From an uncultured Bacteroidales bacterium (GTDB lineage Bacteria > Bacteroidota > Bacteroidia > Bacteroidales > P3), in assembly GCA_900315935.1 (NCBI GenBank), contig ONBB01000013.1, forward strand, positions 116,591-150,270: DNA of 33,680 nt. The letters run 5' to 3'. Positions 1,627-26,149 of the stretch are shown here, piece after piece (the stretch's first letter is position 1; every line of letters starts with the position of its first letter). Below the pieces are notes generated by a model that saw only the letters and a program-made list of their open reading frames with translations, was not told the origin of the DNA and searched no databases. Both the position numbers and the translations under genes were made by a program.

Positions 1627-1700
1627 GTTATTATGCCATTTGTACAGTTGGCGCATCTGTTTTTGTCTGTGGTGGCCTATAGTGTTAATAATGCAAACAA

Positions 1701-1870
1701 GAAGCGTGGCACCGTATACCACGTCTTTCGAATGGAGGTCCTAGGAATAACCTTGTAATGTAGATGTAGCCATAACAGCCCACGCATAACACGTAAACCA
1801 TTATACTCACTTGCATTACAAAATGGAAGTTTCCTAGGTTCCCATTCGCAAGTACGAAGTATAACGCTTC
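1701..1870 (-). repeat. 170-bp imperfect inverted repeat in the leader of the secreted cysteine-rich protein gene
   Basis: Blocks recur in mirrored order on both sides of a centre near 1787: GAAGCG (1701-1706) with CGCTTC (1865-1870); GTATAC (1714-1719) with GTATAAC (1859-1865); CGAATGG (1729-1735) with CCATTCG (1842-1848); CCTAGGAA (1740-1747) with TTCCTAGG (1831-1838); TTGTAATG (1753-1760) with CATTACAA (1814-1821). The whole dyad lies between the minus-strand promoter (1895-1925) and the start codon at 1626, so it would be transcribed as one long stem. It could be a structured leader RNA or a decayed miniature transposable element. No convincing gene lies in 1627-1894. Confidence 0.6.
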
Positions 1871-1894
1871 GTGATTTCCTCGTGAAATCGGATG

Positions 1895-1925
1895 CAAAAT
1901 TACAAACTTTTCCCGACATGGCAAA
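1895..1925 (-). promoter_or_regulatory. Predicted Bacteroidetes promoter for the secreted cysteine-rich protein gene
   Basis: Read on the minus strand, a -33 TTTG (1922-1925) is followed after exactly 19 nt by a -7 TAATTTTG (1895-1902), fitting the TTTG-N19-21-TAnnTTTG consensus. The start site should be near 1888, leaving a leader of about 260 nt. The spacer begins CCATGT, as does the spacer of the rmuC promoter at 10843-10873. Confidence 0.7.
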
Positions 1926-15005: not shown

Positions 15006-15053
15006 ACTAAAAAAACCGGCACTTGCGCGTCGGTCCTTCGTGTGTTGGTTTGG

Positions 15054-15126
15054 TGACCCAGCTGGGGCTCGAACCCAGGACCCCAACATTAAAAGTGTTG
15101 TGCTCTACCTGCTGAGCTACTGAGTC
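15054..15126 (-). tRNA. tRNA-Lys (anticodon TTT)
   Basis: A 73-nt cloverleaf on the minus strand. The acceptor stem is GACTCAG with CTGGGTC plus discriminator A; the anticodon stem is CAACA/TGTTG around loop CTTTTAA, so the anticodon is TTT. The T arm includes GGTTCGAGCCC. No CCA is encoded. It differs from the copy 24 bp upstream by one base in the D arm (15111 against 15207). Confidence 0.96.
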
Positions 15127-15149
15127 TGGTAGCATGGTTGTAGTCGGTG

Positions 15150-15222
15150 TGACCCAGCTGGGGCTCGAACCCAGGACCCCAACATTAAAAGTGTTGTGCT
15201 CTACCTACTGAGCTACTGAGTC
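15150..15222 (-). tRNA. tRNA-Lys (anticodon TTT), second tandem copy
   Basis: A 73-nt cloverleaf almost identical to 15054-15126, with the same TTT anticodon, no encoded CCA, and a single D-arm difference. It is the promoter-proximal copy. The 23-nt spacer implies cotranscription and processing. Confidence 0.96.
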
Positions 15223-15291: not shown

Positions 15292-15447
15292 ATATTTTCT
15301 CAAAGAGTTCTGTATGTATGTCAGATGTTGTTGAAATACAGAAGTATACAATATTCTAATCTTCTTCTCTTTCAGGGCTTGTTCTTTGGTGATTAATGCT
15401 GTTTTCATCCATTTCTACCTGGATTTTGCCCTAGGTGTAAATTTAAT

Positions 15448-15478
15448 TTTGCCAATCCAATTTTATTTCGTAATTTTG
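15448..15478 (+). promoter_or_regulatory. Predicted promoter for the TM2/DUF2752 pair
   Basis: TTTG (15448-15451) and TAATTTTG (15471-15478) are 19 nt apart. The ATG at 15506 follows 27 nt after the -7 box. The 283-bp gap from the tRNAs holds only this and the divergent tRNA promoter. Confidence 0.7.
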
Positions 15479-15505
15479 CACTCAAAATATAAAGCATTTC
15501 AGACT

Positions 15506-15850
15506 ATGGACAAACAAACCCTCATCGACATGTTTCTCGCCAACAAGGGCGAGTGTTTTCCCGCTGAGAGCATTGCTCACATCCGTTCCAAACTCGCCTC
15601 GATGGACGAGGAGCGCGTCTTCATGATGACCAACATTGAGTACAAGAAGCCGCTCATTATGCTTCTGATTTCCATTTTCGTTGGCGAGCTCGGCATAGAC
15701 CGCTTCATGCTTGGCGACACGGGTCTCGGCGTGCTCAAGCTGCTCACCTGCGGTGGCTGCGGTGTGTGGTGGCTGGTGGACCTCTTTCTTGTCAGCGATA
15801 AGACCAAACAGCATAACTATCAGAAGTTTACTAGCATGGCTGGTTATTGA
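15506..15850 (+). CDS. TM2 domain-containing membrane protein
   Basis: The protein has 114 residues. A soluble N-terminal helix region (1-45) is followed by a TM2 domain: a first hydrophobic helix ('[20 protein letters not shown]'), the conserved turn with '[19 protein letters not shown]', then '[15 protein letters not shown]'. TM2 proteins have no well-defined biochemical role. The ATG at 15506 sits at a proper distance from the promoter. It ends TGATG, overlapping the start of the DUF2752 gene; this pairing of TM2 with DUF2752 is common in Bacteroidetes and suggests the products act together in the membrane. Confidence 0.92.
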
Positions 15851-16173
15851 TGACCCTGCAGTTCTGCATCTTCAAGCAGCTCACAGGCGTGCCCTGCCCC
15901 GGGTGCGGTTGCACCCGGGCATTCTTCTCCCTGCTCCATGGCGACGTAGGTAAAGCTTTGTGGTACAATCCATTGGCTATCGTGCTGACCGTTGGTGCAT
16001 TGGCTCTGGGCATAGCCACCCTTTACGAAATCCTTGTGCTGCACCGCCATCCTTGGCACCCCGATTCGCTCTACAGCCGCCTCTTCCGCCGCCGCCTGCC
16101 CTCGTGGGTCATCGTGGCGGCCGCCCTCCTCACCGCCGCCAACTGGGCCTGGAACATCGCCAAAGGGCTGTAA
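15850..16173 (+). CDS. DUF2752 membrane protein
   Basis: The protein has 107 residues from the ATG at 15850, which overlaps the TM2 stop codon (TGATG). It carries the DUF2752 hallmark 'TGVPCPGCGCTRAFFSLLHG' (about 13-32), the CPxCGxTR motif, then hydrophobic helices at about 38-58 and 88-104. Function is unknown; the paired cysteines could bind metal or form a disulfide. It overlaps the TM2 gene and is followed by a strong hairpin terminator. Confidence 0.92.
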   Translation: MTLQFCIFKQLTGVPCPGCGCTRAFFSLLHGDVGKALWYNPLAIVLTVGALALGIATLYEILVLHRHPWHPDSLYSRLFRRRLPSWVIVAAALLTAANWAWNIAKGL

Positions 16174-16223
16174 GGAATCGCTCTTATCACTAGAAAAATC
16201 GCGCTTTTATACAATTATTGAAT

Positions 16224-16238
16224 TTATAATAATTATAA
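16224..16238. repeat. AT-rich palindrome downstream of the ATPase gene
   Basis: TTATAAT-A-ATTATAA is a perfect palindrome. The core TATAATAATTAT also occurs upstream of the ATPase gene on the minus strand (about 17542-17553). Its role is unknown. Confidence 0.35.
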
Positions 16239-16263
16239 AAGCAATAATTTCCCCTTCAAGTAC

Positions 16264-16303
16264 AAATTTTGTTCAATAGAAGCGGTTCTATTGAATAAAA
16301 TTT
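16264..16303. terminator. Bidirectional hairpin terminator between convergent genes
   Basis: An 18-bp stem (arms 16264-16281 and 16286-16303) has a single G/T position and closes on the tetraloop GCGG. The inner ten pairs are TTCAATAGAA with TTCTATTGAA. AAATTTT and AAAATTT at the base provide a T-run for either direction. It separates DUF2752 (plus) from the ATPase gene (minus), as expected for a shared terminator. Confidence 0.75.
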
Positions 16304-16384
16304 CCGATTTTTTACTCAATTGCCATTGCCTTTTTGTCAATAAAATGGTTGGCTCTGTAAGAAAAGCCGAGCCCGAATTATATA

Positions 16385-17524
16385 CTAATAGTTCATTTGC
16401 ATCCATCGGCCGAGGAAAAGGTCGCTGATGCAGTAGCCGTTGTCAGTGGCGGAGACTATCTCTTTCTCTTCCAGACTACGGAGGGCCGACTGGACCGAGC
16501 TGGCCGAGTCCAGTGAATGTTTTTTGATAAACGCGCCAGCGGTGGGCGACTTGACCGACCCTTCGCGGGCAATGGCTTGCAGGAGGTGCTTCTGCTTGGG
16601 GGACAATAGGTTGAGTTGCATCCTGTAGCTCCCTTCCTGCACCTCGAGGATGTTTCGCTCGGCCACGGGAAGCATGGCGGAGGTGCAGACAGCCCCTTCG
16701 TCAGTCAGGGCGAAAAGTTCGTTCATCATCATTTGCAGGTACCAGGTGGTACCCCTGTATTCATCATACACCAGCTCCACCGCTTCGCGTTCAATCCGCT
16801 TTCCCTTCTGTTCGAAAAGCCGCGAGGCAAAGCCGGCATACACATCCTCCGCTATCGGCCGCAGGTCCATCAGCTGCGCACTCTGGTAGAACGGCCTTGC
16901 CTTGGTGTGGAACATCTGGCTGATGGTGTGTTGCTTGCTCCCGCTGAACAGGAACGATGTGTTGGAGCAGCCCTGTATCATGCCCCGCAGGAGAGCCTCC
17001 ACGCGTTTTTCCTGAAATTCGGCAATCTGTTGGAACTCATCCAACGCCAGCAGACAGGGGCGTTTTGCCGCCTCCAGGTACTGGAATATCTCTTCCAGGG
17101 TAACAGCCGGGTCTTCAATGGCTCCGATGCCGAGTTCCAGTTTGGGTTCCCCGCTGATGCTGTCCACCTTGAACCCCATGCGTAGCGACTTGATTGTCTG
17201 GAAGAAGGCTTCCCAATTCCGCTCGCGTGTTGACTTCAGCTGCTCGAAAACGGCCTTGCCCAAGATGTAGCTCATTTCTTGCAGCGTGGTGGCCGAATAA
17301 ATGTCCACAAAGAACGTGTAATAGTGCTCCTGGATTTCCTTTTGTTGGAACAGATGGTGAATCAATCCGGTTTTCCCCATCCTGCGGGGCGACACCAGCA
17401 CCACATTTCGTCCGTTCTGTACCTGCTTTATAAGGAACGCCGTCTCCTCCTTCCTGTCGCAAAACAGCTCCTCTGGGATGCTTCTGGAGATTACGAATGG
17501 ATTGTTTATATTGCTTGTTTTCAT
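16385..17524 (-). CDS. AAA/STAND-type ATP-binding protein with C-terminal helix-turn-helix
   Basis: The protein has 379 residues from the ATG at 17522-17524; upstream sequence is promoter and AT-rich. Walker A is 'VSPRRMGKTGLIHHLF' (about 45-60) and Walker B 'CLLALDEFQQIAEF' (about 162-175), followed by a sensor-like 'NTSFLFSGSKQH'. The last 70 residues form a winged helix ('SVKSPTAGAFIKKHSLDSAS', 'SLEEKEIVSATDNGYCISDL'). It belongs to the archaeal-type ATPase families (ATPase_2/AAA_14, COG1672) that are numerous in Bacteroidetes; their substrates are mostly unknown. It stands alone, between a bidirectional terminator and its own promoter, with AT-rich related sequence on both sides, consistent with an independently mobile gene. 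Confidence 0.85.
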   Translation of the reverse strand: MKTSNINNPFVISRSIPEELFCDRKEETAFLIKQVQNGRNVVLVSPRRMGKTGLIHHLFQQKEIQEHYYTFFVDIYSATTLQEMSYILGKAVFEQLKSTRERNWEAFFQTIKSLRMGFKVDSISGEPKLELGIGAIEDPAVTLEEIFQYLEAAKRPCLLALDEFQQIAEFQEKRVEALLRGMIQGCSNTSFLFSGSKQHTISQMFHTKARPFYQSAQLMDLRPIAEDVYAGFASRLFEQKGKRIEREAVELVYDEYRGTTWYLQMMMNELFALTDEGAVCTSAMLPVAERNILEVQEGSYRMQLNLLSPKQKHLLQAIAREGSVKSPTAGAFIKKHSLDSASSVQSALRSLEEKEIVSATDNGYCISDLFLGRWMQMNY

Positions 17525-17571
17525 AAAGATACGAATTATTATAAAAATAATTATTATATTTTCAATAATTG

Positions 17572-17601
17572 CAAAAGTAATAAATATTCTGCACATACAA
17601 A
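17572..17601 (-). promoter_or_regulatory. Predicted promoter for the ATPase gene
   Basis: On the minus strand TTTG (17598-17601) precedes TACTTTTG (17572-17579) by 18 nt, one short of the usual spacing. The leader (about 17525-17565) is almost pure A/T with the palindrome AATAATTATT, a possible operator. The promoter lies back to back with the plus-strand one at 17610-17641. Confidence 0.55.
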
Positions 17602-17609
17602 AAAATATT

Positions 17610-17641
17610 TTTGGCCAGTACGGGAAAAAGTTGTATTTTTG
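17610..17641 (+). promoter_or_regulatory. Predicted promoter for the six-gene exported-protein cluster
   Basis: TTTG (17610-17613) and TATTTTTG (17634-17641) are 20 nt apart, a good fit. The start site should be near 17648, giving a leader of about 320 nt before the ATG at 17968. Confidence 0.65.
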
Positions 17642-17646
17642 CACTC

Positions 17647-17967
17647 GCAAACCATTGAGATTTGGTTTGCCGAGAAAGTTGCATTTTTCGCCTTATTCCG
17701 ATCTTGTGAAACTGGACACTTCACTTTGAATGATGTTAGGAATAAGGGCAGACGGATGCTCCAATGGGATACAGTATGTCTTGTATACTGCCTCGTGGAG
17801 CGACTCATAAAGCCTTTATTTTACATCATAGGGAGTCCAGCCCTCACAAGAGAAATAGGGTTTAAATGGATGGCTCCACTTTCTTCGTTAATATCGATTC
17901 ATCTCGACGAGCCTTGGGAAAAAATAAAGCCGATGGGCCCGATGGCTAATAATGGGTCGATAATGCG
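17647..17967 (+). other. Long untranslated leader of the exported-protein cluster
   Basis: No supportable gene lies in these 320 nt. At the predicted transcript start an 8-bp hairpin is visible: GCAAACCA (17647-17654) with TGGTTTGC (17663-17670). A second is CAGTAT (17772-17777) with ATACTG (17785-17790) over a 7-nt loop. The region could be a structured regulatory leader or leftover sequence from the insertion that brought the AT-rich genes. No known riboswitch is recognised. Confidence 0.4.
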
Positions 17968-19656
17968 ATGAAAGTAAGACTATTTTTTGCTATGGTTCTT
18001 GTGCTAGGCACAATAGGTAGCGCAACCGCACAGTATGGCTCTGCCTTGGAGGAGTACTATTTGGGGTTTTTGGACGAGGGTTCCGAAGATTCTGTTTTAT
18101 GCAAAAGGGGATATAATGCCTATCTGTTTGAACAATATGAAGAGGCATATAGGTACTATAGTCGTGTAAGTAAAAAATGGTTCGAAAAAATGAGCGAAGA
18201 AGACTTCTTGGCTTATGCTATCAGTTGTATTAATTTTAGGAAACTAGAAAGTGCCATAGATATATATGAGTTAGGATTGAGAAAATCGCAGTATGCACAC
18301 GTATTGCAGGGAGAAATATTTAAAAAACTCGAAGAATTGGACAACGCTGATCCACAAACTTTGCCCCAGGAAGAGATATATCCGTTGTTGAGATATTGTA
18401 ACGAAAGGCACCAATATGAGAGAACCCTTGAACTGTGTGATAAAGTATACAATTATATAGGGTATAATGAGGTCGTAAATTACTACAAGGCAGAGGCGTA
18501 TTATTCAATGGGTGCTTTGGCAAAGGCAGAGTCTTGTTTGGAAAACCTGGTGAATATCAGCAGTGGAAGGATTCTGGATTCTGCTAGTCTATCTTTTTTT
18601 AATAAGTGGGCTTTCCTTGCGGGAAAAATGTATTATGCTGATGGGGACGTAGAAAATGCTTTTTTCTGGATGAACGAGGTAATGAATAATAGGGTTTTAA
18701 ATGGAGGATTGTATCGCCCTGATGGCATGTCATGGGTTATGTACAATCGCCTGGAAAAGCAAGACGAGGTAGCAAAAGAGCTATTGCCCCCCATCCTAGC
18801 CTGGGACATGGACGCTGATATTAGGTATTTTTCTCAATTTCTTATGGCGGATATATTGCAGCGACAGGGATTTGAATCTGCGTCATTGACTAGTTGGAAA
18901 AATCTTGTAAGTGATGAAAGTCTAAATGGAGACAATGTCTTTTCCCATATTGCGTGTAACAAAATGGGACTCCTCCAAGAAGCTGACGAGTATTTTGATT
19001 TACTTCTTCGTAAGGAGTCAATGACGGAATACGATTATTATTCTGCGGCATACGGATACATTATGCGTGGCGACAAGGAGCGGACTTTGGCTTATGCAAA
19101 ACGCGCGATTGACGCATCCCACGACCCCATGTGGGCTCAATATTTCATAAAGGATGATGTGTTCGCTCCTATCAAAAAACAGGTGAAAGGCTACATGAAA
19201 GAAAAAGAAAAGATGGTCGAAAAAAAGTATCCGAAAAAGAAGTACTCCTACAAGCAGACGGAAATACCTTTTTACTGGGAAAATGGTATAATGATTGTTG
19301 AGTGTTATTTGAATGGTATGAAGAAAAAAATGATTTTTGACAGCGGTGCCTCCTATTCTAATATTGGCATCAGTGAAGCATATGAAATGTATACAAGGGG
19401 GCATCTGTCTGAAGATGATATACTATTTCCAGTAGACGCTCAGGTGGCAGATGGTCGTGTTGTGGAATCTAACATGATACTTGTAAAAGAAATAAAGGTA
19501 GGAGACTTTGTGTTGAAGGATGTTAGAACCATGGTAGATAGCAACGACAGCAATGGGATGCTGTTGTTGGGTCAGTCGGTGCTTACGCGGTTTGAGAAGT
19601 TTGAAATCGATTATGAGAATTTTGTTATCCGCCTCACCTATAAGGTGGAGAAGTAG
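17968..19656 (+). CDS. Exported TPR protein with C-terminal retropepsin-like aspartic protease domain
   Basis: The protein has 562 residues. A signal peptide (1-22, '...GTIGSATAQ') is followed by degenerate TPR helices (about 45-410, e.g. 'AYLFEQYEEAYRYYSRVSKK', 'YYSMGALAKAESCLENLVNI', 'YGYIMRGDKERTLAYAKRAI') and a lysine-rich linker (about 404-428). A clan-AA aspartic protease domain comes last: 'VECYLNGMKKKMIFDSGASY' with catalytic DSGAS at 458-462, and 'GMLLLGQSVLTRF' near 530-542 as the second hydrophobic-Gly signature. Such domains act as dimers on other proteins. Being exported, it would work in the periplasm or on the surface, with the TPR part binding substrate. It begins the AT-rich cluster. 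Confidence 0.85.
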   Translation: MKVRLFFAMVLVLGTIGSATAQYGSALEEYYLGFLDEGSEDSVLCKRGYNAYLFEQYEEAYRYYSRVSKKWFEKMSEEDFLAYAISCINFRKLESAIDIYELGLRKSQYAHVLQGEIFKKLEELDNADPQTLPQEEIYPLLRYCNERHQYERTLELCDKVYNYIGYNEVVNYYKAEAYYSMGALAKAESCLENLVNISSGRILDSASLSFFNKWAFLAGKMYYADGDVENAFFWMNEVMNNRVLNGGLYRPDGMSWVMYNRLEKQDEVAKELLPPILAWDMDADIRYFSQFLMADILQRQGFESASLTSWKNLVSDESLNGDNVFSHIACNKMGLLQEADEYFDLLLRKESMTEYDYYSAAYGYIMRGDKERTLAYAKRAIDASHDPMWAQYFIKDDVFAPIKKQVKGYMKEKEKMVEKKYPKKKYSYKQTEIPFYWENGIMIVECYLNGMKKKMIFDSGASYSNIGISEAYEMYTRGHLSEDDILFPVDAQVADGRVVESNMILVKEIKVGDFVLKDVRTMVDSNDSNGMLLLGQSVLTRFEKFEIDYENFVIRLTYKVEK

Positions 19657-19684
19657 AGTTATATAAATTAAAACAATAAATCCA

Positions 19685-20356
19685 GTGAAACAAACAACTT
19701 TAAGCTTTTTTATGGCAATCTTGCTTTTGGCGGGCTGTTCTCAAAAGAGAGAGGTTGCCGAAATAGGTCTGGACACAATAGGAAAAGTTGATACCGATCC
19801 TCATTTGGAAGAGGATGTTTCTCTAATGAAAAGAGCGCACCCTAGTCCCAAAGCCATGGAAATGGAAATCGGGTCGTTGTCAAATAATACAGAGAAGCTA
19901 GCGCTTGCACAGAGATACCTAGATATAGGGCGTTATGAAATTGCATTGAATATGTTAGAGGAACTATATCAAGAGGCTCCATCCGCTAGAATACTTGCTG
20001 CGATTAAACGATGCAAGAAGGAGTTGATATTGGGTGGATCGGAATACACAGTCTTCGAGCACGAACTTAAGCCCTCGTTCCCTCAAGAGTGGAATTATGG
20101 AAGTAATCTGTCTTTTGGTTGGAAGTGTGGATTGCTTTTTGCGGATGATGTAGAAGTGCAATTCTATTATGGCGAGAATAAGGAGACTATTCTTAAACGT
20201 CGTTATTCTGGGGATAAAGAATCTGATGCAGTTTCATCGGATTTGCTGCAATTACCAGAAGGAACAGAGTTCATCCGTTGGAGAATGGAGGTTGTGTTTG
20301 AGGACGGCTATCGCACGCGAAAAGAGGGGAGAATTAAAGTATTGTGGAAATTATAG
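19685..20356 (+). CDS. Putative lipoprotein of the exported cluster
   Basis: The protein has 223 residues starting at a GTG (19685-19687); this start is needed to give the signal 'KQTTLSFFMAILLLAGC' with a lipobox (LAGC). A TPR-like helical pair ('LALAQRYLDIGRYEIALNML') lies at about 73-100. The C-terminal half is beta-rich ('LSFGWKCGLLFADDVEVQFY', 'RWRMEVVFEDGYRTRKEGRI'), with no family I recognise. It is 28 bp downstream of the protease gene and 9 bp upstream of the next, so it is part of the same operon. Base composition is AT-rich like its neighbours. Confidence 0.8.
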   Translation: MKQTTLSFFMAILLLAGCSQKREVAEIGLDTIGKVDTDPHLEEDVSLMKRAHPSPKAMEMEIGSLSNNTEKLALAQRYLDIGRYEIALNMLEELYQEAPSARILAAIKRCKKELILGGSEYTVFEHELKPSFPQEWNYGSNLSFGWKCGLLFADDVEVQFYYGENKETILKRRYSGDKESDAVSSDLLQLPEGTEFIRWRMEVVFEDGYRTRKEGRIKVLWKL

Positions 20357-20365
20357 CACCATTTT

Positions 20366-20845
20366 ATGTCGGTACTTGTCCGTTTCTTTATCCTCACATT
20401 GGCACTCGGGTTGCTGCCCGGCATGGCGGCTGCGCAAAACCCCGCTAAAGATGCTTTTCTTGGGCGATGGGAGGGTTGCGGTGAGCCCCAACTGGTTGTC
20501 CAATGGAAGGATGGCCGTCTTGTGGCTTCGACGTTCTTCAAGGGGCGAGCTTTGGCAACCACGCAAGTCGTCGTGGCTAACAACAACATTACAATAGATT
20601 TTGTGGTGGAAAAACAGATTGGCCGCAACTACCATGTGGGAGACAAGGGACACATAGGTTTGCGTGCCTGGCCTGCTCCTGATGAAAGAATTGTTAGGCA
20701 TCTTGAGTTTGTCGGCACGCTCAAAGGAAGTAACCTGTTTGTTGAATGCCAATATTATGACGAGATGGAGTCGCATGGACTGGTAGATATATTCCCGTAT
20801 GGCAAGTTTTTGTTATGTAAAGATATGAAGAGATTCCCATTATAG
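20366..20845 (+). CDS. Small secreted protein of unknown function
   Basis: The protein has 159 residues. The signal peptide 'MSVLVRFFILTLALGLLPGM' ends with AAAQ (cleavage at about residue 24). The mature domain is beta-rich: 'FLGRWEGCGEPQLVVQWKDG', 'LATTQVVVANNNITIDFVVE', 'HLEFVGTLKGSNLFVECQYY'. Its opening 'FLGRWEG' is reminiscent of lipocalin-like or small-molecule-binding beta barrels, but I cannot assign a family. It sits 9 bp after the preceding lipoprotein gene. Confidence 0.75.
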   Translation: MSVLVRFFILTLALGLLPGMAAAQNPAKDAFLGRWEGCGEPQLVVQWKDGRLVASTFFKGRALATTQVVVANNNITIDFVVEKQIGRNYHVGDKGHIGLRAWPAPDERIVRHLEFVGTLKGSNLFVECQYYDEMESHGLVDIFPYGKFLLCKDMKRFPL

Positions 20846-20937
20846 TTGTAAAATAGTTTCATCCATAAACCGACGAGCCGATGGGATAACAGGCGGCAAT
20901 AATTATGAAGTATACAAACCTTAAACAGACACAGATT

Positions 20938-22512
20938 ATGAAAAAGATTATTTTAATGGTTGTCCTATTTGTGTTATCAACACCAGCGTTGGAGGCACAG
21001 AAAGGACCTTGGATTGTGAAAATTGTAGAAGGCGTGACTCGTGCTTTAACTAACCCTTCGACGGTTAGGCCAACAGGGAATGGTGACATTCCCTATGTCG
21101 GTCCCGGTGTCAGTCCCGTCCGCCCAATCATCCAGCCAGTCCCAAAGTTGGACTCTTCAAGGGGAACACTGCCAATACCGCCAATACGCGTTCCCAAGCC
21201 TAGCCCCTATTCTCCTGCATTGCCGAATTATCAAGGGTTGTTGTTGTTGACAGAGAAATATAATATGCTTGACCGATTCCTCAAATATGTGCTCATCGAG
21301 TCGCAATCCATCGACGACCCCGACCCCAATTCATTCCCGATGACTGAGGGGCAGCGAACGATTGCCCAACAAATATATGATGAGATTAGAAGCTTTGGCG
21401 GGGGCGTGGAGGTGAAGATGTCTGAAGACTATTATGTTTACGCCAAGGTGCCGTCCAACATGAAAAAGAAGGTTCCCTCCGTGATGTTTATGGCGCACCT
21501 CGATGTTACGCCCGAGGCCAACGGCAAGGGCATAAAGCCGCAGGTGCACCTCAATTACAGCGGTGGCCCTATTGCCCTCGGCAATGGTCTGGTGCTCTCT
21601 CCCGACTCCAAGCAGGGACGCCACCTGAGAGACCTCGTGGGCAAGACTATCGTTACCTCCGACGGCAACACCCTTTTGGGCGCCGATTGCAAGACGGGCT
21701 GCGCCATTTTGGTTACACTTATCGAGCAGATGGTAAATGAGGGCAAGCGTTTCGAGCACGGAGATGTATATTTCTGCTTCTCGCAGAATGAAGATGTCGG
21801 CAAGGCGGCAATGCGTATGGATATGAACATGTTCGACAAAGTGCCCGACATGCTCTTCGATATCGACGGGGACGAGTATGGCACGTTCAGTGTGGCCAAT
21901 TTCACAGCCGAGGGCGGCTCCTACCTTTTCAAGGGCAATCTAGCTCATCCCTCCAACGGCAAGAAGGACGGCTATGCCGACGCCCGCACGGCCATGGCGT
22001 ATTTCCTTGGCCAGCTGCCGCCCGAGGTGCATCCCTCCCATTCCGAAGGCCAGCAAGGGTACATCCACTGCTATGCCATCGACCAGCTCCCCAACCAGCA
22101 GGATGTGCGCCTGCGCTTCCGTGTGCGCTACTTCGACAAGGAGGACGGCGCACGCTATGCCCGGTACCTGGACAATGCCTTGGGCAAGACCCGGGAGGCT
22201 TTCCCTCTGGTGGCAATAGAGAAGGAAGCCTTCGGCAGGCAGTATGACAACATTGCCTACAGTATGCACCCCAGGTCGGTGGAGGTGGTTTCCGTCGCAG
22301 CGCTAAAGACCGGTATCGAGATGAAGCCCGTGGAAATACGCGCCGGCACCACGGCCGCCATGATGGTGGCCCACGGTATGCCCGGCGGCCCCTGCCTCTA
22401 CAGCGGACAGAACGCCGCCCACAGTGTATATGAGTGGTGCTGTATCGAGGAATTGGTCGAACTGACCGGCCTCTGCAAGGAAATCGTTTCACAAATAGCC
22501 AACCAGAAATAA
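20938..22512 (+). CDS. Exported peptidase T-like M20 metallopeptidase with proline-rich N-terminal extension
   Basis: The protein has 524 residues; cytosolic PepT has about 410. The ATG at 20938 starts the signal 'MKKIILMVVLFVLSTPALEA'; an ATG at 20905 behind AGGCGG is an alternative. A proline-rich stretch (about 40-100) precedes the catalytic part. M20 metal ligands are mostly present: HLD (187-189), Asp250 in 'LLGADCKTG', Glu285-Asp286 in 'SQNEDVG' (Glu-Glu in PepT), Asp310 in 'FDIDGDEYG', and His495 in 'QNAAHSVYEW'. PepT's 'GTDG' is GTTA here. It probably cleaves N-terminal residues from short peptides outside the cytoplasm, if active. The first third is AT-rich like the genes upstream, the rest GC-rich like those downstream. 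Confidence 0.88.
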   Translation: MKKIILMVVLFVLSTPALEAQKGPWIVKIVEGVTRALTNPSTVRPTGNGDIPYVGPGVSPVRPIIQPVPKLDSSRGTLPIPPIRVPKPSPYSPALPNYQGLLLLTEKYNMLDRFLKYVLIESQSIDDPDPNSFPMTEGQRTIAQQIYDEIRSFGGGVEVKMSEDYYVYAKVPSNMKKKVPSVMFMAHLDVTPEANGKGIKPQVHLNYSGGPIALGNGLVLSPDSKQGRHLRDLVGKTIVTSDGNTLLGADCKTGCAILVTLIEQMVNEGKRFEHGDVYFCFSQNEDVGKAAMRMDMNMFDKVPDMLFDIDGDEYGTFSVANFTAEGGSYLFKGNLAHPSNGKKDGYADARTAMAYFLGQLPPEVHPSHSEGQQGYIHCYAIDQLPNQQDVRLRFRVRYFDKEDGARYARYLDNALGKTREAFPLVAIEKEAFGRQYDNIAYSMHPRSVEVVSVAALKTGIEMKPVEIRAGTTAAMMVAHGMPGGPCLYSGQNAAHSVYEWCCIEELVELTGLCKEIVSQIANQK

Positions 22513-22518
22513 ATACTT

Positions 22519-23550
22519 ATGAAAAACAACCGTCTTTTGGGTTTGGTATTCTCCTTGCTGCTCCTGGCGGGCTGTACTTACGATGGGAAACCATTGTGGA
22601 GCGATGAATTGTATGAATCCGTCAGCACGGAGGTGAAGGGGCTCCTGGAGGCTTGCGGTGCTTCGGGGGGCGGCTATGTGGCCGTCGAGGTGCAGTCGGG
22701 CAGGAGCGCTGTCAGCAATGTCGTTGTCCGCGACTCGTCAGGACAATACTCAAGCGCCGATGTCGAGAAGATATTGGAACTCGACTATTACCGTTTCCTC
22801 ATGGGCGATCTCTTTGCGCCGGTTCTGCTGACGGCGGCGCTCAATGAGCGGTGTGTGGACACCTCTATGCTGTTCAGCACCAACCGTTTTGCGCCCGATG
22901 CGCAGCAGATGCTCCGGGACGGTGTCCGCGTCGATTCGCTCACCATGCGCGAGGCGTTGGCCATGTGCTCGCATGCCGCCTATGCAGATTTGGGGTTCCG
23001 TTTCCGCGACAGTTTCGCCGGCGACATCCGCACCGCCGTGTCCCCGCTTTTTCCCACCAAGGATCCCAGCCAGGTCATCGAGATGACCGGCTCGCTGCCC
23101 GACGACACCGCTTTCTTCCGCTTCTGCATCGGAGGGGAGTCGCGGATGTCGGTAATGGGTGTGGTGGCGTTCTATAACGCCCTGGCGCGTGGTGGCGTTC
23201 CCATCGAGCCGTTCCCCGTCCCCAACAATGCGCCGACCCTGCCGGGCAAGCCCATCTGCAGCCGCGAGGTGGCGGCGCAGATGACCTCGCTGCTCCAAGG
23301 GGTGGGGGTGTACGGCCCCGCGGCACATGCCTTGCAGGAACTGCCTTTCGCCGTGGCCGGCAAGACCGCCTTCATTCCCGAAGGCTATGACCACTGCGGG
23401 CGCACCTATATGGTGGGCTATTTCCCGGCCGACAACCCCAAGTGGACGCTCCTGCTCTATATGGACGACACCGAGCGCTGCACCGCAGCTCTCGCCGCAA
23501 CGTTTGCCCGCGTGGCCGACGCGGTGATGGCAGAGGATAACCACAAATAG
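22519..23550 (+). CDS. Lipoprotein resembling a penicillin-binding transpeptidase with all three catalytic motifs lost
   Basis: The protein has 343 residues. The signal 'MKNNRLLGLVFSLLLLAGC' has a lipobox (Cys19). The body follows the order of an FtsI/PBP2-type transpeptidase domain: 'YVAVEVQSGRSAVSNVVVRD', then a PGSxFKP-like site reading 'MGDLFAPVLLTAAL' (96-101), then 'SHAAYADLG' at the SxN position (151-153). 'SVMGVVAFYNALARGGVPIE' (about 211-230) is a very good match to PBP 'LAFYNAIANNG'. 'FAVAGKTAFIP' replaces KTG, and 'YMVGYFPADNPKWTLLLYMD' closes the domain. Ser and Lys of SxxK are Asp and Ala, so acyl-enzyme chemistry is not expected. It may be a structural or regulatory envelope protein. 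It is 6 bp after the peptidase gene. Confidence 0.75.
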   Translation: MKNNRLLGLVFSLLLLAGCTYDGKPLWSDELYESVSTEVKGLLEACGASGGGYVAVEVQSGRSAVSNVVVRDSSGQYSSADVEKILELDYYRFLMGDLFAPVLLTAALNERCVDTSMLFSTNRFAPDAQQMLRDGVRVDSLTMREALAMCSHAAYADLGFRFRDSFAGDIRTAVSPLFPTKDPSQVIEMTGSLPDDTAFFRFCIGGESRMSVMGVVAFYNALARGGVPIEPFPVPNNAPTLPGKPICSREVAAQMTSLLQGVGVYGPAAHALQELPFAVAGKTAFIPEGYDHCGRTYMVGYFPADNPKWTLLLYMDDTERCTAALAATFARVADAVMAEDNHK

Positions 23551-23557
23551 CACAGCG

Positions 23558-23875
23558 ATGGATACGAAAGAGAAAAAGCGCCCCTATTTCCCCCACCTGT
23601 TTGGTGATGAAGTGGGCGAGTTAAACATCTTCATGGGACTGTTCCTGGCCGGTGTGGGCGTTCTTTGCGGGGTGATTGCTGGATTGTTCGGGGACTGGAG
23701 TGAATTCACCACGTTCAGCATGATGGGGGTGTTTGCCCTCCTCCTCATGGTGGCGATTGAGATTCTGCGCTGGATATGGCACATCATCCTCACCAAGGGA
23801 GGCAAAACCCCATTGCCGCCCCGCGATGACACTCACATCAACTGGGACGGGTACGACAGCTATAATCGCTATTGA
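23558..23875 (+). CDS. Small two-helix membrane protein
   Basis: The protein has 105 residues and starts 7 bp after the pseudo-transpeptidase gene. A short charged N-terminus is followed by two hydrophobic helices (about 24-45, 'IFMGLFLAGVGVLCGVIAGL', and about 52-72, 'FSMMGVFALLLMVAIEILRW') and a polar tail ('PLPPRDDTHINWDGYDSYNR'). No family is recognised. As the last gene of the exported cluster it may anchor or partner one of the products. It converges on the DUF6266 gene with a 7-bp gap. Confidence 0.75.
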   Translation: MDTKEKKRPYFPHLFGDEVGELNIFMGLFLAGVGVLCGVIAGLFGDWSEFTTFSMMGVFALLLMVAIEILRWIWHIILTKGGKTPLPPRDDTHINWDGYDSYNRY

Positions 23876-23882
23876 GACCCCT

Positions 23883-24839
23883 TTACGGAACTTCGGGCGG
23901 GTCGGTGGCCGCCGTGGGGATGGTGGTGGGGGTTGGATGGTAGGCTGTCGAGCGGCCTGGGTTTGGCTCAATTGTCATGGAATCAGTGGATTCGCCCGTG
24001 ATTTGCAGTGGCTGGGTGTCGCTGTCGGGCTGGCTGACGGTGCCGTGGCCGATGTAGGCGGAGCGGGAGGCGCGGCCGTTGCGGTCGACCACGAAGCCGT
24101 AGAGGTGCACCTCGGTGCCGGACCAGTGCTGCGGTAGCCTCATTTTCACCACTTTGCTGCGGCGCAGGGCGGGGGCGGAGAGCTGGCTCTCGCCCAGCGC
24201 AGGGGCGTAGGCGAAGAGGTAGACGCTGTCCTCCGACGAGGCGCGCGACAGCATGCTATTCTTCTCATACTCAACCCTTACCACCTCGCCCTCCTCGAAC
24301 TGCGGCGCCTTGAACCGCACCTCGGCGGCGGTGCCTTCGGCAATGATAATGTGTTCAAAATCAATCGCGAGGCATGCTCCTCTGTCTTGGGACACACTCC
24401 TCCGCCCTTCGGGCACCTCCCCTAGCTTAGGGGAGGAGTTAAAATGCACATCTGCGCTTCCAAATTCAGTGGTGGGGATGGTGTGTGTGTTCCTCCGCTC
24501 TCCCTCAAAGTTAGAGGGGGTGGCGCCGCCGTGTGCGCCGCCGTGGGCGTGTGTCCGAGCGAAGCAGCGCTTGTTGCTCATAACGAAGTAGTTGCCCTCG
24601 GTCATCTGGTGCCGTTCGGCCTGTTCGCGCAGGCCCAGCAGCAGCGCCTGGCGCGCCGTGGAGGCGAAGCGCACCATGCTCACAAACCAGTCGCGCTCAG
24701 CCTGTTGCATCGGTGTATTGGGGTAGGCCACCGTGCGCTTGTAGGCACGCACACAGGCGCGGCCGCGCCACGAGTAGCCCACCACGGTGCCGACGCGCCC
24801 CGAGAAGGCGCCCAGTATTCCTTGTTCCAGTTTTGCCAT
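23883..24839 (-). CDS. DUF6266 family protein with repeat-derived internal insertion
   Basis: The protein has 318 residues from the ATG at 24837-24839. The start 'MAKLEQGILGAFSGRVGTVV' with 'GYSWRGRACVRAYKR' is the DUF6266 hallmark. The family domain resumes at 'ACLAIDFEHIIIAEG' (about 155-169) and continues to about 266 ('AYIGHG'), with a Thr/Pro-rich tail. Between them about 60 residues (94-154) are not family sequence; they are encoded by GC-rich repeat DNA (24395-24440 and about 24490-24530), giving 'NSSPKLGEVPEGRRSVSQ'. DUF6266 function is unknown; these genes are common in Bacteroidetes and variable in copy number. The frame is intact, so the protein may be expressed with the insertion. 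Confidence 0.82.
   Translation of the reverse strand: MAKLEQGILGAFSGRVGTVVGYSWRGRACVRAYKRTVAYPNTPMQQAERDWFVSMVRFASTARQALLLGLREQAERHQMTEGNYFVMSNKRCFARTHAHGGAHGGATPSNFEGERRNTHTIPTTEFGSADVHFNSSPKLGEVPEGRRSVSQDRGACLAIDFEHIIIAEGTAAEVRFKAPQFEEGEVVRVEYEKNSMLSRASSEDSVYLFAYAPALGESQLSAPALRRSKVVKMRLPQHWSGTEVHLYGFVVDRNGRASRSAYIGHGTVSQPDSDTQPLQITGESTDSMTIEPNPGRSTAYHPTPTTIPTAATDPPEVP
24395..24440. repeat. Palindromic dispersed repeat inside the DUF6266 gene
   Basis: The element contains two hairpins: GCCCTTCGGGC and CTCCCCTA/TAGGGGAG. A second, related hairpin-rich tract follows at about 24490-24515 (CCCTC with GAGGG). The minus-strand frame reads through as Ser-Pro-Lys-Leu-Gly-Glu-Val-Pro-Glu-Gly-Arg-Arg-Ser-Val-Ser, so it behaves like a protein-coding palindromic element. 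Confidence 0.65.
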
Positions 24840-24910
24840 ATTTTTCTGCTTTTTTGTTTCCAGATAGGGTAACGTAGCCCCCTCGTTTTTATTGCCTACC
24901 CGTTGAAGAA

Positions 24911-24932
24911 GAGAGGAAGAAGAGGGGAAGAA
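24911..24932. repeat. Dispersed intergenic repeat, partial copy 3
   Basis: About 20 bp match the purine-rich first part of the repeats at 1984 and 10926; the downstream half with the hairpin is absent or diverged. It lies in the 243-bp gap between the DUF6266 gene and the divergent acidic protein gene. Confidence 0.5.
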
Positions 24933-25006
24933 CATAGAGCTCCGTACTGGCTGATGCAGAGCTACTTGCCTGCGGCGAAAAAAAGCGGAATTTCCTGAAA
25001 ATTTAT

Positions 25007-25037
25007 TTTTCCAGTCCGAAAAAGTTCCGTACATTTG
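25007..25037 (+). promoter_or_regulatory. Possible promoter for the acidic protein-wbqC pair
   Basis: TACATTTG (25030-25037) matches the -7 box; 19 nt upstream is only TTTT (25007-25010) instead of TTTG. The ATG at 25083 is 45 nt downstream. Confidence 0.4.
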
Positions 25038-25082
25038 TACCGACGAACATTGCGCGCCTCTAAACGTAACAGACTATATATC

Positions 25083-25496
25083 ATGAATATGGAGATTACC
25101 CTGCGCCGAGGTATCGGCGACATTACCTTTGGGATGCCGGTGGAGGAGATAGTGGCCCGCCTCGGCAACCCCGACGAAGTGGAGAACATCGACAACGCGG
25201 CCGACGAGAGCACCACTGTGCTGCGCTACAACGAGTTGGGTCTCACCCTCTTTTGCGAGGGCGACAACCCCGTGCTGGCCTGCATCGATGTGGCCAACGA
25301 GGAGTGCACGCTCTTCGGCGAGCCCCTCTTCGACCTCGAGGAGCGCCCCATCGTCGAGCTCATGGTGCGCCACAACTACACCGAGGAGGACGCCGACGAG
25401 GAGGACTGGGGCGAGCGCCGCATCAGCTTCCCCGAGGCCAATGTGGACTTCTACTTCGACCAGGGCGAGCTTGTCTCCATCATCCTTGGCCGATGA
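25083..25496 (+). CDS. Conserved acidic protein of unknown function
   Basis: The protein has 137 residues from the ATG at 25083, preferred over a longer frame with a basic, unlikely N-terminus. It is strongly acidic ('YTEEDADEEDWGERR'). The opening 'IGDITFGMPVEEIVARLGNP' is a Gly-Met-x-x-x-Glu-Val-x-x-x-Leu-Gly-x-Pro pattern seen in small SmpA/DUF-type domains; I cannot place it further. It has no signal peptide, so it is cytosolic. Its stop overlaps the start of the wbqC gene (ATGA), so the two are translationally coupled. Confidence 0.8.
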   Translation: MNMEITLRRGIGDITFGMPVEEIVARLGNPDEVENIDNAADESTTVLRYNELGLTLFCEGDNPVLACIDVANEECTLFGEPLFDLEERPIVELMVRHNYTEEDADEEDWGERRISFPEANVDFYFDQGELVSIILGR

Positions 25497-26149
25497 GCGC
25501 CCTCTTCTCCACGGCCTACCTGCCGCCCGTCCAGTATGTTGCAACATTGTTGCAACATACAGATATCCAGGTGGAAGCCAAGGAAACCTACCCCAAGCAG
25601 ACCTACCGCAACCGCGCCCTCATCCTGACTGCCGGCGGCGTGCGGCCGTTGACGGTGCCGGTGGTGCGCACGCAGGGCAACCATTCGCGCACGGAGGACA
25701 TCGCCATCGACTACCGCACGCGCTGGAATGTGGTGCACCTGCGCACCCTGGAGGCCGCCTACGCCGCCTCGCCTTACTATTTTTACTATAGGGACGGTCT
25801 GGCCGATGCCCTGCAGCAGCGCTACGACCGCCTGCTCGACCTCAACCAGGCGCTCATCGCCTGGCTGCAGAAGTGTTTGAAAACCAATGTGAAGGTGGAA
25901 CTTACCGCCGACTGGTTGCCCTTGGGTGCCGAGGGCGCTCCGGCCCATCAGCATGACTATCGCAACGCGTTTTCGCCCAAACCAACTTCTCACTCCTCAC
26001 CCCTCACTCCTCATTACCCCCCATATTATCAAGTATTTGCCGACCGCCATCCCTTTGTTCCCGGCTTGAGTGTGGTCGACCTCCTCTTCAACCTGGGACC
26101 CGAGGCCACAGGCTATCTACATGCTGTCGCAGAATGTCCTCAGGATTGA
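25493..26149 (+). CDS. WbqC-like family protein
   Basis: The protein has 218 residues from the ATG at 25493, which overlaps the upstream stop. WbqC family features are 'STAYLPPVQYVATLL' at the start, 'ETYPKQTYRNRALILTAGG' (about 32-50), 'LTVPVV', 'IAIDYRTRWNVVHLRTLEAA' and 'YAASPYYFYYRD' (near 90). 'FVPGLSVVDLLFNLGPEATG' is near the end. WbqC proteins occur in polysaccharide gene clusters but their reaction is undefined. Residues about 165-176 derive from a repeat (25986-26021) and read Ser-His-Ser-Ser-Pro-Leu-Thr-Pro-His. A perfect inverted repeat lies at 25534-25560. The 3' end overlaps the convergent lysC by 10 bp. Confidence 0.9.
   Translation: MSALFSTAYLPPVQYVATLLQHTDIQVEAKETYPKQTYRNRALILTAGGVRPLTVPVVRTQGNHSRTEDIAIDYRTRWNVVHLRTLEAAYAASPYYFYYRDGLADALQQRYDRLLDLNQALIAWLQKCLKTNVKVELTADWLPLGAEGAPAHQHDYRNAFSPKPTSHSSPLTPHYPPYYQVFADRHPFVPGLSVVDLLFNLGPEATGYLHAVAECPQD
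25534..25560 (+). repeat. Perfect 27-bp hairpin near the 5' end of the wbqC gene
   Basis: GTATGTTGCAAC (25534-25545) and GTTGCAACATAC (25549-25560) are exact inverted copies around ATT. They encode residues about 15-23 (Tyr-Val-Ala-Thr-Leu-Leu-Gln-His-Thr). A 12-bp stem 40 nt from the start codon could affect translation or bind a repressor. Confidence 0.7.
25986..26021 (+). repeat. CTCACTCCTCACC-type dispersed repeat inside the wbqC gene
   Basis: A CACTCCT-type tandem shares the exact 17-mer TCACCCCTCACTCCTCA (25997-26013) with the U32 gene (8486-8502), in a different reading frame. It lies between two conserved WbqC segments and keeps the frame open. Confidence 0.7.

Follow-up and report, generated by a model that had tools for sequence, protein, structure and literature searches.

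Layout of the locus

Here we describe an operon of six genes and the leader RNA in front of it, both carried by a 33,680-nt stretch of DNA (the window) from an uncultured Bacteroidales bacterium (contig ONBB01000013.1), the genome of which (designated G000) comprises 2.29 Mb in 31 contigs. The six co-directional open reading frames (ORFs), g1 to g6, occupy positions 17968-23875 of the window on the forward strand and are separated by gaps of 28, 9, 92 (or 59), 6 and 7 nt, with a convergent DUF6266 gene terminating 7 nt past g6. Upstream of them lies a promoter followed by a structured leader RNA of ~245 nt (17630..17887, +), a dispersed element that scored 231.1 bits in cmsearch. An earlier note on this DNA had pointed to six adjoining genes with mostly tiny gaps behind one promoter. 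The genes are indeed arranged in this way, with gaps of 6-92 nt, and a promoter is present; the note nevertheless understated the upstream region, as 258 nt of it form a conserved structured leader element. We take TATTTTTG, at 17634-17641, to be a -7 box of the Bacteroidota type. A scan for consensus promoters and terminators returned counts near the shuffled expectation, the consensus being one that does not cover Bacteroidota promoters.

The first gene, g1 (17968..19656, +; 562 aa), encodes an exported TPR-type protein with a C-terminal retropepsin-like (clan AA) domain in which the motif FDSGA is intact. It is followed by genes for a lipoprotein, g2 (19685..20356, +; GTG start, 223 aa), and a small secreted protein, g3 (20366..20845, +; 159 aa). 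Next are g4 (20938..22512, +; 524 aa, or 535 aa from an alternative upstream ATG at 20905), which encodes an exported, PepT-like metallopeptidase (M20B) extended at its N terminus by ~108 residues, and g5 (22519..23550, +; 343 aa), which encodes a lipoprotein pseudo-transpeptidase made up of the FtsI transpeptidase domain only, its active-site motifs lost. The last gene, g6 (23558..23875, +; 105 aa), encodes a small membrane protein. Export was called by reading the sequences by eye. The signal peptides of g1, g3 and g4 end at an A/Q boundary, which fits the Bacteroidetes Q-rule as given in an excerpt of PMC10653852; a lipobox, LLAGC, is found in g2 and in g5, and g6 lacks a signal peptide and contains two hydrophobic segments. 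Five products thus carry a signal peptide or lipobox and the sixth is a membrane protein, in keeping with the earlier prediction that all of them leave the cytoplasm. The GC content shifts along the operon, from 0.40 and 0.42 in g1 and g2 through 0.49 in g3 to 0.55 and 0.62 in g4 and g5, and for this reason the operon looks, by its composition, like a mosaic of two source origins.

Fold and covariation of the leader RNA

A search with the 341 nt upstream of g1, in which the best six candidates per genome were scored, gave matches in 84 of the 119 genomes of the genus and in at least six places in G000. A profile found 75 full-length leader copies of 237-273 nt, 66 of them distinct, these being drawn from the better-scoring places of that search and not a random sample. 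The leader runs from GTAnTTTTGCA to GGCTCCACTTTCTT. Covariation and reading gave nine helices, defined on the same alignment as was used for counting; within them, 93.0% of 3124 cells were paired, as compared with 41-52% when the partners were slid. Both sides had changed in 24 pairs; the cells concerned numbered 177, whereas 500 shuffles gave 50 ± 5.5. Most helices also held in tests on split halves: 115-118/236-239, 82-85/258-261, 92-95/247-250, 18-24/36-42, 69-75/125-131 and 222-227/270-275 each stood at 0/300, followed by 241-244/254-257 at 4/300 and 162-165/187-190 at 13/300, while 147-152/202-207 (90/300) and 8-11/266-269 (300/300) failed.

The predicted fold includes a kissing loop between CUGGAC (17712..17717, +), in the loop of a GUGAA/UUCAC hairpin, and GUCCAG (17835..17840, +), in the loop of an AGGG/CCCU hairpin. 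Each of the 66 genus copies can pair these two strands over 5-7 bp; the pairing takes 11 listed forms, some of which are contained in others. Own strands paired over 6.59 bp in the genus versus 4.52 bp when permuted, over 7.10 versus 4.97 bp in 31 copies from outside the genus, and over 7.00 versus 4.58 bp in the 14 copies from other families, in each case above all 500 permutations. In addition, a GUGGAGC strand can pair either with UGCUCC upstream or with GCUCCAC downstream. Over the 31 outside-genus copies both of these competing pairings stood at 0/2000 permutations, yet each is weak in one subset: the upstream pairing stands out in the 17 copies from other genera of the same family (12/2000), and the downstream pairing in the 14 other-family copies (10.0 versus 7.2 bp, 0/2000). 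The near-invariant GGCUCCAC is more easily understood as a strand that pairs. A leader ORF with ATGGATGGCTCC as its start codon was considered and rejected, as several copies shift the frame or lose the ATG.

Spread of the leader and the genes behind it

At E<=1e-4, a covariance model of the leader found matches in 92 of 149 genomes of the family, covering 9 of its 12 genera, with eight matches in G000. At E<=1e-5, it found matches in 26 of the 393 genomes of the order set (21 of 206 genera), the weakest of which may be partial or due to chance. In the 31 copies from other genera and families, helices H1, H0, H2, H3, H4 and H5 and the pseudoknot H7 beat all 500 shuffles; the nested helices have an advantage here, the alignment having been fitted to them, which H7, lying outside the model, does not share. 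Comparison thus shows the leader to be one of a class of predicted structured RNAs with dispersed copies in the genus and members in other families of the order. No Rfam 15 family reached its gathering score over the leader in the window stretch, nor did any reach E<=1 over the leader in 15 loci (the window's included), the few matches falling elsewhere in the loci. Among the titles and abstract starts listed in literature searches, in a collection short of most subscription journals and of bioRxiv, none dealt with this RNA or with an operon of exported PepT and pseudo-transpeptidase.

The leader has two properties expected of a structured cis-regulatory leader, i.e., covarying helices and a consistent sense placement just before a gene. 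A sense ORF of at least 60 codons starts within 180 nt of the leader in 60 of the 66 genus copies, a count made without a chance control, and a sense ORF follows the leader in 26/31 copies outside the genus. By the stricter of our signal tests, the ORF behind the leader in the genus was exported in 47/60 cases and a lipoprotein in 28/60, as compared with 145/469 and 35/469 in a control set that includes spurious ORFs. The leader also heads a G065 cluster of CHAT, CHASE2, PepT and pseudo-transpeptidase genes (L026, 783-1038), and a weak match (19.9 bits) lies directly before the G141 retropepsin gene. In G108 it heads an unrelated lipoprotein gene at the very site that the operon occupies in the window (L176, 6561-6827, -), i.e., the same leader with swapped cargo. 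A second, divergent copy (24.2 bits) is present in the window itself (1698..1906, -), where it overlaps the start of an exported-protein frame (448-1722, -).

Families and active sites of the six proteins

In searches of Pfam and NCBIfam profiles, g1 matched PF13975, a retroviral-type aspartyl protease, with 40.4 bits (cut-off 28.2) and carries the D-[ST]-G-A motif of clan AA retropepsins as FDSGA. Its score against TIGR02281 (39.6) was below the cut-off of 57.95, and the region before the protease domain gave sub-threshold TPR matches. The g4 protein matched the PepT subfamily profile NF003976 (265.7, cut-off 255) and fell short of the equivalog TIGR01882 (206.6, cut-off 285.75). Residues H187, D189, D250, E285, D310 and H495 of g4 are invariant across eight aligned sequences, and one metal-ligand position is Asp where PepT has Glu; the metal-ligand and catalytic positions are those of Salmonella PepT. 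On this alignment g4 retains the PepT metal-ligand positions and catalytic acid and is an intact-looking peptidase, as is g1, the other peptidase named in the earlier note.

The same note had called g5 a penicillin-binding protein (PBP)-like lipoprotein without an active site, and this was borne out. It matched the transpeptidase family PF00905 with 35.6 bits (cut-off 22.1), and its alignment with the FtsI of its own genus gave DLFA for SIFK, CSH for SSN and KTA for KTG. It aligns to the transpeptidase domain of FtsI only, without the N-terminal non-penicillin-binding domain and transmembrane anchor. Amongst five other stand-alone pseudo-transpeptidases, only that of G141 keeps both SxxK and SxN, with KSA in place of KTG; the G121 protein has no KTG segment and the G086 version a shortened one. 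The stand-alone family looks like an FtsI domain that has departed from peptidoglycan synthesis. No family scored above cut-off for g2, g3 or g6. In g2, the last ~90 aa show a weak resemblance (20-23% overall) to the C-terminal domain that relatives have in their anti-sigma-like proteins. None of the PADLOC profiles matched g1-g6 at E<=0.01, and a reading of these genes as a defence system was dropped on that account; the adjoining AAA ATPase gave weak PDC matches in PADLOC.

A recurring pair of genes within the operon

All six genes were found together in no other genome examined, the genus set comprising 119 genomes and the order set 393. A stand-alone pseudo-transpeptidase is present in six genus genomes (G000, G065, G141, G118, G121 and G086), as determined from the best 18 candidates per genome, the other listed matches being long frames of FtsI size. 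In the order set, where the best five candidates per genome were scored at E<=1e-60, a cut-off too strict for short members like the G086 protein, the only one of 393 genomes to match was G000 itself. Scanning genome contigs for exact peptides of g5 turned up no relative, whereas the whole-genome searches did. Full-length exported PepT occurs in 8/119 genus genomes, with partial or weak matches in four more. Both genes are present in five genomes, where they lie at most one gene apart each time (Fisher P 1.8e-6, with genomes treated as independent though phylogenetically they are not). PepT precedes the pseudo-transpeptidase in G000 and G065, one gene intervenes in G141, and the order is reversed in G121 and G086. 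As judged from these genomes, exported PepT and the pseudo-transpeptidase form a recurring core with a real tendency to adjoin.

The gene-neighbourhood check that the earlier note had proposed recovered exported PepT with the PBP-like lipoprotein in 5/119 genus genomes, but not the full set of six in any other genome examined. The outcome that the note had named as refuting it, i.e., genes that do not stay together in other genomes, was in part observed: the six occur together in no other genome examined, their order and neighbours differ from relative to relative, and the site itself is a variable slot. PepT and the pseudo-transpeptidase adjoin in five genomes. Matches to the TPR/clan-AA protein were found in 21/120 genomes, many of them in unrelated contexts. 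Many gut Bacteroidales have exported PepT alone, without the partner genes, and PepT with a Q-rule signal peptide is common outside the genus: among the 28 best-matching PepT loci (L079-L106), 25 of the 27 that could be scored passed the Q-rule signal-peptide pattern, the remaining one being without the motif searched for, and those passing include named Xylanibacter, Phocaeicola and Segatella records. Only one of the next 52 loci (L107-L158, mostly Chryseobacterium) passed.

A variable slot beside tRNA-Lys genes

The operon lies in a slot that is bounded on the left by a gene designated TPR635 and two tRNA-Lys genes (15051..15222, -) and on the right by g8 and a WbqC-like gene (25080..26149, +). 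The slot also holds a TM2-domain gene (+), a small gene (+) and the AAA ATPase gene (-) (15386..17650), as well as the DUF6266 gene (23883..25034, -), a frequent occupant in relatives. The left-hand gene was matched in 107 genomes, and the slot was inspected in 20 of these. It was empty in nine, with the right-hand genes directly after the tRNA genes; two of the nine had one ORF of 93-101 codons in between, and in one of these two a single tRNA-Lys was called. Other cargo was present in four, each time with DUF6266, e.g., in G108, the closest genome by the left-hand gene (86%), where the slot holds the AAA ATPase gene, its product 73% identical, along with a gene for a different lipoprotein, a Fic-like gene (by reading) and DUF6266. 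Five had tRNA-Lys and DUF6266 followed by other genes, and two had a different neighbourhood. The slot of G088, inspected besides the 20, was also empty. None of g1-g6 was present at the slot in any of the 20 relatives. By comparison, the six genes are thus shown to be cargo within a variable slot beside tRNA-Lys genes. A partial DUF6266 gene closes the G065 cluster, and DUF6266 genes may serve as a marker of variable cargo.

Partners of the core genes in relatives

Gene names in the relatives are from reading of the sequences, except that Pfam matches support the sigma factor and Hsp70 of G118, the protease domain of G141, CHAT and CHASE2 of G065, and Sel1 of G121. In G065, the order is CHAT, one further gene, CHASE2, FecR-like, PepT, pseudo-transpeptidase and membrane protein; the g4-g5-g6 order is kept, with identities of 81%, 44% and 33%, the g6 homologue being at the same place. 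In G141, the TPR-retropepsin gene is followed by sigma, anti-sigma-like, two small genes, PepT, one gene and the pseudo-transpeptidase, and in G118 the row runs sigma, anti-sigma-like, Hsp70, TPR, pseudo-transpeptidase and membrane protein. The longest row, that of G121, consists of a TPR protein, sigma, anti-sigma-like, lipoprotein, Hsp70 and TPR-retropepsin, and then a small gene, Sel1, TPR, pseudo-transpeptidase, PepT and a membrane protein. The G118 sigma factor, with 28.2 bits to PF04545 (cut-off 24.1), is the only one confirmed by Pfam; neither the G118 anti-sigma-like protein nor the G065 FecR-like protein gave a Pfam match. The wiring of these relatives to sigma/anti-sigma-like, Hsp70 or CHAT genes suggests signalling by proteolysis rather than feeding, although the operon in the window is itself without a sigma gene, and no sigma factor of the relatives' type matched in G000 at E<=1e-10 (20/119 genus genomes have one).

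Several further clusters were seen in passing. At L100 (3826-12836), PepT, Sel1-repeat genes, a caspase-domain gene, sigma-like and anti-sigma-like genes (by reading) and a CHAT gene stand in a row, possibly a protease-controlled sigma cluster. At L060, L061 and L062, in three genomes, sigma-like, anti-sigma-like (by reading) and CHAT genes lie a few genes from a TPR-retropepsin gene, a candidate module of regulated proteolysis, and at L067-L070 and L073 clan-AA protease genes are found within large clusters together with zinc-ribbon-like, tubulin-like and MotB-like proteins (by reading). A second uniform operon of the genus, composed of genes for sigma, a short anti-sigma-like protein and proteins of ~485, 188, 271 and 415 aa, recurs with variations in nine genomes (L159, L160, L164-L169 and L172).

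Interpretation and alternatives

We interpret the locus as a variable envelope-protein operon behind a regulatory leader RNA, an interpretation in which our confidence and our doubt are about equal. With the same even balance, we propose that the leader founds a new class of Bacteroidales cis-regulatory RNA. Present in several copies per genome, this fold of ~245 nt, which combines a kissing loop with two helices in competition, would be the shared switch of one regulon made up of lipoproteins and other exported proteins, this operon included. Transcription would begin just before the first stem of the leader, and the RNA would then fold with its kissing loop. A signal would select the pairing of GUGGAGC with either UGCUCC or GCUCCAC and in this way set the expression of the downstream genes, the exported proteins being translated behind the leader. 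As regards the operon's biochemical action, we infer from the protein families that, in the envelope, the retropepsin g1 would cut endoproteolytically and PepT (g4) would trim N-terminal residues off the resulting peptides, while the pseudo-transpeptidase g5 may bind or scaffold without catalysing, its partners perhaps being peptidoglycan-type peptides.

Several observations weigh against this interpretation. H3b and H6, good within the genus, failed in the 31 independent copies. The upstream pairing (H3) was weak in the 14 other-family copies (6.4 versus 5.8 bp, 41/2000) and the downstream, alternative pairing fell within the permutations in the 17 other-genus copies of the same family (646/2000); the proposed two-state switch is a reading of sequence only. 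The link to exported genes was not seen outside the genus, where a loose test scored 16/31 as exported (10 not exported, five without an ORF) against 234/469 in the control; moreover, the patterns of the export test are home-made and related leader copies are not independent. On the protein side, g1-g3 are not, in the genomes compared, conserved together with g4-g6. The structure predictions were poor, with pLDDT values of 48 for g3 (single sequence) and 47 for g5 (five sequences); the all-beta model of g3 was not relied on, and the putative role of g5 is unsupported other than by homology.

Alternatively, the leader could be no regulator but a MITE-like RNA/DNA repeat, mobile or selfish, which carries a promoter by accident. 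Its several copies per genome (at least eight in G000 and 12 in G108), its patchy distribution and the different cargo behind it at one site would fit such a repeat. The placement of sense ORFs after it and the enrichment of exported genes there speak for a regulator instead, as does the covariation across families, kissing loop included, which implies selection on the folded RNA; there was also no leader match in plasmids and no exact 20-mer of the leader in viral contigs. We consider a selfish repeat unlikely. Turning to the proteins, the earlier note had seen an undescribed envelope proteolysis system in the operon, and the tendency of exported PepT and the pseudo-transpeptidase to go together survives from that proposal; a single six-part machine does not, as partners and order change. 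A dedicated, co-evolved six-component system for envelope proteolysis or peptide processing would account for the tight co-directional packing, the two plausible peptidases, the export or membrane location of every product and the conserved g4-g5-g6 order in G065. It is, however, very improbable given that the complete set recurs in no other genome examined, that CHAT, CHASE2 and FecR-like genes (by reading) rather than g1-g3 precede PepT in G065, that the GC content shifts between g1-g2 and g4-g5, and that the slot held none of the six genes in 20/20 relatives.

The operon could alternatively be a branch of sigma/anti-sigma regulated proteolysis, in which the retropepsin would cut an anti-sigma-type protein and g2 would be a detached sensor domain. 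In G141 the TPR-retropepsin gene stands directly before the sigma/anti-sigma-like genes, in G121 it comes three genes after them and in G118 (where alone the sigma factor is confirmed by Pfam) it is nearby, while in G100, G106 and G083 such a gene lies a few genes from sigma-like, anti-sigma-like and CHAT genes (by reading); g2 resembles the C-terminus of anti-sigma-like proteins, and protease-controlled sigma release is, in the excerpt of PMC10028731, established for RseA and proposed for Csx29/Csx30. G000 nevertheless has no match to such a sigma factor at that cut-off, the one anti-sigma-like protein tested against Pfam had no match and the similarity of g2 is weak, which leaves this branch possible but doubtful. 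Ordinary peptide scavenging, with the exported aminopeptidase and the protease feeding the bacterium and g5 a relic, is in our view rather unlikely. It draws on the record titles of many close PepT relatives, which name ruminant stomach or gut sites, and on the wide occurrence of exported PepT in gut Bacteroidales; on the other hand, g5-type genes are intact ORFs in six genomes, SxxK is absent from five of these, residues beyond the active site are invariant, and there is the association with regulators and chaperones.

Under the interpretation we favour, a variable envelope operon behind a regulatory leader, the protein half would be an envelope gene set assembled from swappable parts, in which a pseudoenzyme derived from FtsI is paired with an exported peptidase. 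The RNA half has wider bearing, in that a complex multi-copy leader with no Rfam match marks genes for surface and exported proteins in the genus, and it could offer a handle on co-regulated envelope genes in uncultured gut Bacteroidales without a known regulator. The leader RNA is the stronger discovery of the two; the protein mosaic with its PepT/pseudo-transpeptidase core is of moderate interest.

Comparison with known systems

The g4 protein resembles Peptidase T (M20B; 3ife, 1vix and 1fno) over the full domain (E 8e-52 to 5e-47), with the metal and catalytic positions kept. It differs from that enzyme by its Q-rule signal peptide and N-terminal extension, by Cys for the second Asp of GADD, by ED for EE, and by its score below the equivalog cut-off of TIGR01882. 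Similarly, g5 matches FtsI/PBP2 structures in profile searches (4ztk, E 4e-10) and aligns along the FtsI domain of the genus; unlike FtsI and other class B PBPs, it is a lipoprotein with the transpeptidase domain only and has lost SxxK and KTG. As a structured RNA found by comparative genomics in this order, the leader is akin to Bacteroidales-1 and the other Bacteroidetes RNA motifs described in the excerpt of PMC2864571, from which it is set apart in that it matches no Rfam 15 family. The retropepsin or CHAT genes of relatives that lie near sigma/anti-sigma-like genes recall the protease-controlled sigma release of SpoIIGA and that which the excerpt of PMC10028731 gives for Csx29-Csx30, whereas the operon in the window is without a sigma gene. 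The closest system studied by experiment is the rlo operon of Pseudomonas, in which, according to the excerpt of PMC12239564, the secreted retropepsin RloA is encoded with the inactive transglutaminase RloB and the two act in osmotic and cell-wall stress. The present operon differs from rlo, as excerpted there, in the TPR fusion, in the nature of the dead enzyme and in its Pfam matches, which for g1-g6 include neither a transglutaminase nor an ATP-grasp family; it shares with rlo a secreted retropepsin encoded alongside a dead enzyme, with a putative role in the envelope.

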